A stretch of 64,000 nucleotides of DNA from Candidatus Thorarchaeota archaeon (GTDB taxonomy: Archaea; Asgardarchaeota; Thorarchaeia; Thorarchaeales; Thorarchaeaceae). Of the stretch, positions 59,947-62,736 are shown one piece after another. Positions within the stretch are counted from its first letter, which is position 1, and every line of letters begins with the position of its first letter. The notes under the pieces are model-generated. The model ran no database searches. It saw nothing but the letters and a program-made list of their open reading frames with translations, and was not told where the DNA came from. The stretch spans positions 1 through 64,000 of the forward strand of contig PRDJ01000041.1 of NCBI GenBank assembly GCA_003345555.1. The letters are read 5' to 3'. Position numbers and translations under genes: made by a program.

Positions 59947-59980
59947 AGACATTCGTACGCGTAATGCTTTAGTGAGCTGC
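59947..59980 (+). repeat. Direct repeat copy 1, upstream of 7TM paralogue 1
   Basis: AGACATTCGTACGCGTAATGCTTTAGTGAGCTGC; 30 of 34 positions match 61174..61207. Confidence 0.75.
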
Positions 59981-60045
59981 GACGAGAAGTGAACAGCGGC
60001 CATTCACCGTAGAGGTCATCCGCCTTTGGCTTTGGGAGGCTAAGC

Positions 60046-61110
60046 ATGCCCGCCTTTGCTGGAGTCACTATCGTAAGGGACACTGTGTTAGTCCTCGATT
60101 CGGCTGTTGTGTTGTACACACTGCTATTCGGACTTACGCTCGTATATGAATGGCTCAGGAGCCCACTGCGGAAGCTCACAGATGTAAGATTGGCATGGTC
60201 CGTCTTCATGTTCGGCATGGCCTCTAACTCGTTCTGCTTCATCATGTCGGATTTCTACTTCACTGCCGAGGCCGATTGGATATTGTGGGTCAAAGCAGGA
60301 TATGTCTCCATGATGCTTGCGCTTGTCGGCTTCTCGGTTGCGCTTGAGAGAATACTGCCCTATCGTACACACCACGTATTCTCTTCCGCCGTGACTGTCA
60401 TTGCTGTGGCTTCTCTTCTGGCTCCGAGGGAGACGTTGACCACTCTTGCGTTTGCAGCTTGTTTGGTCGCCTTTGGCATTCTGGTCTTGTTCTTCAGATT
60501 CTTTGTGAGGAACACGACTGGTGTCGTCCGAAGCAGTATGAGAGTCATCTTGGTCGGCTTTCTTGTAGGGTTCGTGGGCTATATTGGTCGTAGCGACTTC
60601 GTATATGCTGGCCTTGGTCCGGAGGTCTATATCCTAGGTGGATTCCTCTTGGCTGGAGGACTTCTGATTCTGGGCACTGCCGTGCTTGGGTCACCCGCTC
60701 TCGACGAATTGGACTGGACTGACCAGATGCTTGAACTCTATTTGATACACACAAGCGGAATTCTGTTGTATCACCACAAGTTCGTGCCAGCAGTCAATAT
60801 GGATGAGAGTCTAACAGCCGCAGGCATTACAGGAGTCCAGGAGCTGTTCAAAGAGATCACCCAAAGCAAGACCGGCCTGAACAATCTATCCGTGGGAGAC
60901 TTCAACATTCTGTTCGCCCATCAAGTCGATTTCACATCGGTCCTCATAGCGAAGCAACCCTACCGAGTGCTCTTGGAAAAGGTGAAGGACTTCTCCGACA
61001 AGTTCCAGCTTGTCTTTGGAAAGGCAGTGCAAGAATTCTCTGGAAACACGAGTCAATTCGATGCTGCGGAACCGCTAGTTAAAGCCGTGTTCAGTCCGGG
61101 CTCCAAGTAA
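60046..61110 (+). CDS. 7TM membrane protein with C-terminal longin/roadblock-like domain (paralogue 1)
   Basis: Seven hydrophobic segments, then soluble 'MLELYLIHTSGILLYHHKFVPAVNMDESLTAAGITGVQELFKEITQSKTGLNNLSVGDFNILFAHQVDFTSVLIAKQPYRVLLEKVKDFSDKFQLVF'. Confidence 0.75.
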   Translation: MPAFAGVTIVRDTVLVLDSAVVLYTLLFGLTLVYEWLRSPLRKLTDVRLAWSVFMFGMASNSFCFIMSDFYFTAEADWILWVKAGYVSMMLALVGFSVALERILPYRTHHVFSSAVTVIAVASLLAPRETLTTLAFAACLVAFGILVLFFRFFVRNTTGVVRSSMRVILVGFLVGFVGYIGRSDFVYAGLGPEVYILGGFLLAGGLLILGTAVLGSPALDELDWTDQMLELYLIHTSGILLYHHKFVPAVNMDESLTAAGITGVQELFKEITQSKTGLNNLSVGDFNILFAHQVDFTSVLIAKQPYRVLLEKVKDFSDKFQLVFGKAVQEFSGNTSQFDAAEPLVKAVFSPGSK

Positions 61111-61173
61111 TCCCGAGAACAACCCACCCTCGCGAGCAGGCGCACCCACATCAGGTCTACTGCGTTCCCGTTG

Positions 61174-61207
61174 AGACATTCGTACGCGGAATGCTTTAGT
61201 TGGTTGC
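61174..61207 (+). repeat. Direct repeat copy 2, upstream of 7TM paralogue 2
   Basis: AGACATTCGTACGCGGAATGCTTTAGTTGGTTGC; lies 65 nt before ATG 61272, versus 66 nt for copy 1. Confidence 0.75.
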
Positions 61208-61271
61208 AGCCTGGCCTCAACACCGTGGGTCGCTCTAGACCCCGTTGGGTTTATGCTTCGGGAGGCCGACC

Positions 61272-62336
61272 ATGCCGCCGTTTGTTGAGGTCACTCTTGT
61301 AAGAGACATTGTACTGATTCTCGACTCAGCTGTTGTGCTGTACACACTGCTGTTCGGGTTGGCATTTGTGTACCAATGGCTGAGGAGCCCTTTAAGGAAG
61401 CTGACAGATGTGAGGTTGGCATGGTCAGTCTTCATGTTCGGGATGGCATCAAACTCGTTCTGCTTTGTTATGTCGGATTTCTACTTCACTGAGCCGACTG
61501 CGTGGGTGCTATGGGTCAAGGCGGGCAATGTCTCATTGACGCTGGCACTTGTGGGCTTTTCTCTTGCTCTGGAGAGGATCTTGCCATATCACACGCATCA
61601 CGCCTTCTCCATGACAGGGACCCTCGTTGCTGTGGCTTCTGCACTTGCCCCGAGGGAGTTGCTGAATCCTATTGCACTTGCAGCCATCCTGGCGGCATTT
61701 GGAATTCTTGTCCTCTTTTTCAGATTCTTTGTGAGGAACACGACTGGCGTTGTTAGAAGCAGTATGAGAATCATCTCGGTTGCGTTTGTTGTTGGGTTCG
61801 TGGGTTTTCTCGGTCGCAGCGACATCGTCTATTACGGCTTGGGTCCGGGGGTCTACATTCTAGGTAGTCTGTTTCTTGTCGGAGCGCTCCTGATTCTGGG
61901 GACCACCCTATTCGGATCACCGGCCCTTGATGAACTGGACTGGACCGATCAGATGCTCGAACTGTATGTTATTCATACCAGTGGGATACTACTGTTTCAC
62001 CGTAAGTTCGTGCCCGCAGTCAATATGAATGAGAGTCTCACGGCGGCAGGCATAACTGGAGTAGATGAGCTGTTCAAAGAAATAATGCAGAGTGTTGGCG
62101 GCCTCAACAACCTGTCTATCGGCGACTTCAGTATTCTGTTCGCTCACGAACCGGATTTCACTTCAGTCCTCATAGCCAAGCAACCCTACGGAGTGCTACT
62201 AGAAAAAGTGAGGGACTTCTCCCAGAAGTTTCAGCTAGTCTTCGCAAAAGCGGTTCATGAATTCTCAGGGAACACGGCCCAGTTCGAAATGGCCAACGCA
62301 CTCTTGGAAGCAGTGTTCAGTCAGGGCACCGGGTGA
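61272..62336 (+). CDS. 7TM membrane protein with C-terminal longin/roadblock-like domain (paralogue 2)
   Basis: Alignable end to end with 60046..61110 (MPPFVEVTLVRD vs MPAFAGVTIVRD). ORF opens at TTG 61245. Confidence 0.75.
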   Translation: MPPFVEVTLVRDIVLILDSAVVLYTLLFGLAFVYQWLRSPLRKLTDVRLAWSVFMFGMASNSFCFVMSDFYFTEPTAWVLWVKAGNVSLTLALVGFSLALERILPYHTHHAFSMTGTLVAVASALAPRELLNPIALAAILAAFGILVLFFRFFVRNTTGVVRSSMRIISVAFVVGFVGFLGRSDIVYYGLGPGVYILGSLFLVGALLILGTTLFGSPALDELDWTDQMLELYVIHTSGILLFHRKFVPAVNMNESLTAAGITGVDELFKEIMQSVGGLNNLSIGDFSILFAHEPDFTSVLIAKQPYGVLLEKVRDFSQKFQLVFAKAVHEFSGNTAQFEMANALLEAVFSQGTG

Positions 62337-62469: not shown

Positions 62470-62736
62470 ATGTCCGCGAAGAAGACAAAGAAGAAGCAAG
62501 TGGGCGTGGTCACGCGCTTCTTCAGTAACATCAGTGTCGCTGCAATCAAGCTTGAGCAACCACTGCGCATGGGCAATAAGATCTCCATCGAGGGGCCTCT
62601 CGGAGCAATCGAGCAGGTTATCGAGTCAATGCAAATCGACAGGAAGCCAATTCAGCAGGGAGCGCCCGGTCAGGAAATAGCTATCAAAGTCAAGAGTCCT
62701 GTCAGGGAGAATGATAAGGTATTCGTGCTAGAATAG
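62470..62736 (+). CDS. Small EF-Tu domain II-like protein (translation elongation factor-like)
   Basis: 'VGVVTRFFSNISVAAIKLEQPLRMGNKISIEGPLGAIEQVIESMQIDRKPIQQGAPGQEIAIKVKSPVRENDKVFVLE'. Confidence 0.85.
   Translation: MSAKKTKKKQVGVVTRFFSNISVAAIKLEQPLRMGNKISIEGPLGAIEQVIESMQIDRKPIQQGAPGQEIAIKVKSPVRENDKVFVLE

Follow-up and report, generated by a model that had tools for sequence, protein, structure and literature searches.

In eukaryotes the longin fold serves in the handling of small GTPases at membranes. Asgard archaea, including Thorarchaeota, are the archaeal group closest to eukaryotes and possess eukaryote-like small GTPases in great number. Longins, roadblocks and longin-GTPase fusions of Asgard archaea have already been described (PMC10933270, PMC4917890), as have Asgard longins joined with Vps28-C and adaptin appendage (PMC11188069). 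The longin homologues given in PMC10933270 are from Loki- and Odinarchaeota only, not Thorarchaeota; transmembrane fusions are unmentioned there, and operons are said to pair Asgard GTPases with regulators only seldom.

The window analysed here is a stretch of 64,000 nucleotides from a Candidatus Thorarchaeota archaeon (contig PRDJ01000041.1, positions 1 to 64,000). It contains two adjacent genes whose products are predicted to carry a longin domain behind seven transmembrane (TM) helices. These share with the Asgard proteins mentioned above the phylum, the fold and, within their own genome, profile homology; they differ in that those proteins, as far as reported, are either soluble or fused to a GTPase. 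Among the papers searched, which were open-access ones and a minority of preprints, none was found to describe a multi-TM protein with a longin at its C-terminal end. The features of the locus are listed in Table 1.

Table 1. Features of the 7TM-longin locus, in coordinates of the window.
Feature	Coordinates	Strand	Evidence or remarks
Upstream element 1 (ACATTCGTACGCGTAATGCTTTAGT)	59949..59973	+	97 bp before ATG 60046
Paralogue A, 354-aa 7TM-longin protein	60046..61110	+	ORF; AF2 model pLDDT 81; most genomes of the same family have an orthologue
Seven-helix membrane module of A, residues 1-215, predicted N-out / C-in	60046..60690	+	AF2 helices, K+R loop counts
Cytosolic longin domain of A, residues 217-354, starting with the conserved juxtamembrane motif PALDELDW	60694..61107	+	AF2, Foldseek
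Upstream element 2 (ACATTCGTACGCGGAATGCTTTAGT)	61176..61200	+	96 bp before ATG 61272
Paralogue B, 354-aa 7TM-longin protein	61272..62336	+	78% identical to A; sister to A in tree; dN/dS about 0.10
Seven-helix membrane module of B	61272..61919	+	76% identical to module of A; paralogue comparison
Cytosolic longin domain of B	61920..62333	+	80% identical to longin domain of A; paralogue comparison

An earlier sequence-only reading had described two adjoining paralogues of about 354 aa, alignable end to end, and this is borne out: the ORFs at 60046-61110 and 61272-62336 specify proteins with 78% amino acid identity over their full length. The ORF listing begins paralogue B at TTG 61245, but B aligns with A from ATG 61272 onward. 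The genome-wide search for further copies which that reading had advised returned no third full-length copy in the 2.28-Mb genome. Comparison of A and B by the method of Nei and Gojobori gives dN 0.14 and dS 1.38 (dN/dS about 0.10), which indicates that both are maintained coding genes under purifying selection. In the maximum-likelihood tree they are sisters (support 100/99), with the orthologue L003 next, and the duplication is therefore recent in the lineage of this genome. A separate tandem pair in another genome (L011/L035) is made up of members that are not sisters in the tree. Just 3′ of B lies a gene for an 88-aa protein (62470-62736, + strand) with a weak likeness to the C-terminal domain of Peptidase_U32 (E 0.046, below cut-off).

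Each gene is preceded by a 25-bp element, the two being identical at 24 of 25 sites while the intergenic DNA around them has diverged. With up to three mismatches allowed, these two matches turn up in the window, where 0 are expected, and the whole genome has no others; in front of the orthologues examined the element was not found. A divergence of this order makes neutral retention unlikely (chance about 7e-8, assuming 45% identity per site), and this suggests that the element is a candidate shared promoter or operator of A and B. It contains a partly palindromic CATTCGTACGCGNAATG. The start of the interval singled out by the sequence-only reading coincides with element 1 (59949-59973).

AF2 modelling with 20 orthologues produced a full-length model (pLDDT 81, pTM 0.70) with TM helices at residues 9-38, 47-71, 75-103, 111-125, 128-156, 160-181 and 192-215, in agreement with the seven hydrophobic segments noted previously. 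Mean K+R counts are 4.3, 1.75 and 2.85 in loops 1-2, 3-4 and 5-6, as against 0.9, 0.15, 0.8 and 0.85 in the N-terminus and loops 2-3, 4-5 and 6-7. By the positive-inside rule this charge distribution places the N-terminus outside and the C-terminus inside, so that the longin domain is computed to be cytosolic, as had been supposed.

In the same model the C-domain consists of strands at 228-235 and 240-245, helix α1 at about 252-273, strands at 280-283, 286-292 and 296-302, and helices at 307-329 and 336-349. The order β1-β2-α1-β3-β4-β5-α2-α3 is recovered when the domain is modelled in isolation (pTM 0.76). Only a helix turn of 4-5 residues precedes β1, and there are two C-terminal helices. The most conserved parts of the protein include α1, β1, β5 and the juxtamembrane motif; yet α1, where the interface is expected, is modelled with the least confidence (pLDDT 46-54), a weak point that counts against the GTPase platform proposed below. 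Foldseek with the isolated domain listed 50 PDB matches at E ≤ 1e-3, all of them longin or roadblock folds. Among these listed matches the best superpositions are with longins, namely VAMP7 (TMq up to 0.68) and AP-1 σ3 (0.65); Sec22b and TRAPP 3cue_A both reach 0.64, and MglB mostly 0.46-0.55. The full-length model had nothing at E ≤ 1e-3, its top ranks (E from 4e-3) being AP σ, AAGAB-bound AP-1 σ3, COPI chains (ζ-COP), TRAPP, Sec22b and VAMP7.

The modelling and structure search that the sequence-only reading had recommended thus confirm, on computational grounds, that the C-domain has a predicted longin fold; it is not the degenerate kinase dimerisation domain which that reading had considered as an alternative. 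Of its "longin/roadblock-like" label the longin half is upheld by element order and TM-score, and the roadblock half is not. The roadblock fold comprises a full helix before β1 and a single C-terminal helix (PMC10933270), and roadblock/LC7 membership was rejected on the missing full helix, the two C-terminal helices and the higher TM-scores to longins. Nor do we consider the proteins to be longin SNAREs (R-SNAREs): they have seven N-terminal TM helices and end after α3, the SNARE coiled coil and single C-terminal TM segment being absent.

Sequence searches are in line with the earlier impression that this is not a described family, as no Pfam or NCBIfam family covers the domain. Single-sequence searches of Pfam, NCBIfam and PDB with the window proteins gave no match. 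Twenty-seven diverse C-domains drew 23 sub-threshold Pfam families, three of them longin-type: Intu_longin_1 (three members, best 0.0016), Sybindin (three, best 0.0076) and Fuz_longin_1. Relatives in the same genome, collected with the diverse C-domain profile A5, matched Fuz_longin_1 at 9.5e-5 and Longin (PF13774) at 0.0044, the latter twice. Among the Pfam longin-type models Fuz_longin_1 came closest to its gathering cut-off (23.0 versus 26.1 bits), and none exceeded its own cut-off in the window domain, its relatives or the own-genome paralogues; sequence therefore hints at membership, and most of the argument is carried by the fold. The NCBIfam matches of the C-domains are scattered and we judge them to be chance. 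A PDB profile search was headed by de novo designed helical proteins, which we attribute to helix composition.

The likeness to the 7TM N-termini of sensor kinases that had been proposed was not confirmed: the module has no Pfam match and, where seen elsewhere, accompanies an Rce1-like protease or stands alone, with no kinase. A 7TM sensor histidine kinase was discarded for want of a Pfam kinase match (HisKA/HATPase output), a longin fold being found instead. A GPCR or microbial rhodopsin was set aside as well, there being no Pfam or PDB sequence match and no lysine (the retinal Lys) in TM7 of P0001. DUF3522 (PF12036) was rejected too, its match to part of the 7TM unit being weak (E 0.023-0.15; 12.6-15.3 bits, far under the cut-off of 29.3 bits). 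Foldseek pairs the full-length model with 7TM proteins only weakly (E ≥ 0.029). A related module is fused to an Rce1-like (CAAX/CPBP) protease at L163:1008-2660 (-) and L164:1447-3030 (+) and adjoins one at L166; at L122, in the same genome as the window, a lone module lies beside a soluble longin-wHTH gene. These links are weaker (profile E 5e-6 to 7e-5), and by them the 7TM module itself appears to be mobile.

Matches to the 7TM-longin protein occur in 48 of 59 related genomes (E ≤ 1e-3). The named orthologues belong to Candidatus Thorarchaeota MAGs, one labelled Lokiarchaeota, which vindicates the Asgard origin put forward from sequence. A contig scan with a single protein as query detected no relative, and with an alignment 17. 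In further genomes of this phylum, twenty more ORFs of about 317-397 aa place the longin domain after 6-8 predicted TM segments, as counted by a simple predictor that finds six in P0001. Orthologues that look truly broken are confined to L020 and L025 (stops) and L016/L044 and L029 (frame breaks), and reflect either decay or assembly error; internal stop codons in several other relatives proved to be terminal stops. The orthologue's neighbourhood at L034-L036, L038-L042 and L045-L047 is conserved and includes peptide-type ABC ATPases and DUF362 ferredoxin-like, DinB-like, MFS, AAT-like and DHDPS-like genes.

The C-domain by itself is present in 105 of 119 sampled Asgard genomes (E ≤ 1e-5). In other Asgard genomes it terminates MFS transporters (L080, L095, L099), which are possible transporter-receptors, and follows an 11-TM protein (L081), units of 4-7 TM segments by the simple predictor (L089, L093, L094, L097, L098) and very large ectodomains with one TM (L082, L085, L086, L087, L091). 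The ectodomain proteins L085, L086, L087, L091 and L120 measure from about 800 to more than 2000 aa and have their one TM towards the C-terminal part, with the longin domain in the cytosol; extra cytosolic winged-helix or coiled regions are present in some of them. Soluble proteins also contain the domain. The soluble protein at L084:978-1709 (-) combines an N-terminal helical stretch that is weakly MIT-like (E 0.0011, sub-cut-off) with a C-terminal longin-like domain. From these architectures the C-domain appears to be a mobile cytosolic module behind differing membrane units.

The genome has 16 Ras-family matches, and profile A5 finds 13 places in it. One, at L116:678-1547 (-), is a 290-aa longin-Arf/Ras fusion (Arf 5.5e-20; Clat_adaptor_s 0.06 over the N-domain), the gene being followed by an ORF for a 192-aa coiled-coil, Ala/Pro-rich protein. 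Another, L117 (G000:C36:55000-59800), is a cluster of a longin (139 aa), a multi-TM protein (492 aa), a Ras GTPase and a second longin (132 aa). A5 picks up the N-terminal domain of the L116 fusion and both L117 longins at E 2-3e-4. In seven other family genomes (L127, L134-L139) a Ras-type GTPase, a longin of this same family and a multi-TM protein are likewise clustered, usually with a zinc-ribbon-like protein of about 90 aa; at L138 the start of the GTPase is missing from the called ORF. In hhalign comparisons A5 aligned with the longin family of the L117-type cluster at Prob 96.8 and E 3e-10 (unrelated control, Prob 0.2), and the narrow window subfamily A4 with the cluster longins A9 weakly (Prob 1.1, E 0.047). 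At the profile level, the link from the window domain to the longins of GTPase clusters runs through the diverse profile A5. Neighbouring small GTPases, which the sequence-only reading had suggested looking for, were not found: no GTPase gene lies within about 6 kb of the 7TM-longin genes of 15 named orthologues, which counts against the GTPase model, and on the window's contig the nearest Ras match is about 17 kb away. The case that the 7TM-longin proteins dock a GTPase is an indirect one.

We propose, with somewhat better than even confidence, that A and B are membrane sensors with a longin output platform for small GTPases. The seven helices, N-terminus outside and C-terminus inside, would form a sensor or anchor unit, and the cytosolic longin domain its output platform. 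By analogy with TRAPP, Mon1-Ccz1, FLCN-FNIP and MglB, the longin domain probably forms dimers, either of one paralogue (A with A) or of both (A with B), along the conserved α1 helix and β3 edge, and probably recruits or regulates one of the many Ras/Arf/Rag-type GTPases of the cell at the cytoplasmic membrane. Computation supports the anatomy well, namely the fold, the topology, the spread of the family, the recent duplication under purifying selection and the homology to longins that are fused or clustered with GTPases; dimerisation, GTPase binding, direction of control and a ligand are features that we infer.

The main rival of the GTPase platform is a trafficking or sorting tag, whereby the longin domain, in the manner of AP σ chains or SNARE longins, would bind coat- or adaptor-like proteins and set the place of the 7TM protein with no control of a GTPase. 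Some longins (SNAREs, AP σ and ζ-COP chains) serve other jobs, which counts against the GTPase model, and AP σ, ζ-COP, Sec22b and VAMP7 are among the top Foldseek matches. As expected of a tag, the domain follows membrane proteins that are unrelated to one another, MFS transporters and huge ectodomains among them, and Asgard genomes are reported to encode adaptin-like and ESCRT-linked longin proteins, with adaptin appendage and Vps28-C (PMC11188069). What makes us regard a sorting tag as unlikely is that members of this domain family occur in fusions or in clusters with small GTPases.

It seems to us improbable that the proteins sense nutrients or peptides and are dedicated to regulating an oligopeptide ABC importer, with the longin domain acting on the transporter or its regulator instead of a GTPase. 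At ten of the 15 named orthologous loci the gene has peptide-type ABC ATPases (ABC_tran + oligo_HPY) close by, the neighbourhood being conserved, and this may hint at nutrient sensing. The genome of the window and the closest orthologues are without this neighbourhood, however, the other architectures of the longin domain have no known tie to Opp genes, and the adjoining ABC ATPase gene, being on the opposite strand, is not co-transcribed with the 7TM-longin gene. We give least credence, and very little, to a roadblock/LC7 domain, or a profilin-like fold of a generic kind, that would serve the 7TM unit structurally, for dimerisation, and in no other way. LAMTOR, MglB and MK-D1 Roadblock2 do occur among the listed Foldseek matches, and dynein roadblock chains among weak PDB profile matches, but the helix arrangement is that of longins (PMC10933270) and the TM-scores of up to 0.64-0.68 for Sec22b and VAMP7 exceed those of MglB.

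Returning to the proposed GTPase platform, the window proteins can be set beside several known systems. Eukaryotic longins (Sec22b, VAMP7, AP σ/ζ-COP, TRAPP Trs23/Bet5, Mon1-Ccz1) have the same element order, with TM-scores up to 0.60-0.68 for several, and are likewise cytosolic and membrane-attached. They differ in sequence (about 10-16% identity to the window domain), and the window proteins are without a SNARE motif and have the longin C-terminal behind seven helices, not N-terminal to a single TM. With MglA/MglB and Ragulator/TRAPP-type platforms the likely shared principle is a longin/roadblock dimer carrying a small GTPase at a membrane, whereas here the putative platform is an integral part of a multi-TM protein. 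As in 7TM sensor histidine kinases and bacterial 7TM receptors, a membrane sensor unit would be followed by a cytosolic output domain; unlike the kinases, the window proteins contain no kinase; their 7TM unit is without a Pfam match, and it is a longin domain that would serve as output. The pair is part of a far broader Asgard set with one longin module behind varied membrane units, which may be likened to bacterial receptors with kinase or methyl-accepting outputs. As a tentative extension, held at a little under even chances, we envisage a wider class of Asgard receptors whose membrane sensors are interchangeable (7TM, transporter-like or with a large ectodomain) and feed a shared longin output and through it Ras/Rab/Rag-type GTPases.

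Longin-bearing membrane proteins occur in Thorarchaeota, for which PMC10933270 gave no longins, and membrane proteins that have a longin built in make concrete candidates for the upstream inputs that have been missing from the picture of Asgard GTPases. The 7TM-longin pair suggests an undescribed way of linking surface sensing to GTPase switches. The wider receptor class, if true, would amount to transmembrane signalling coupled to GTPases in a prokaryote and might be a forerunner of the membrane-bound longin regulators of eukaryotic GTPases. Membrane proteins with a longin of their own would bear on the pre-eukaryotic origin of GTPase control at membranes.
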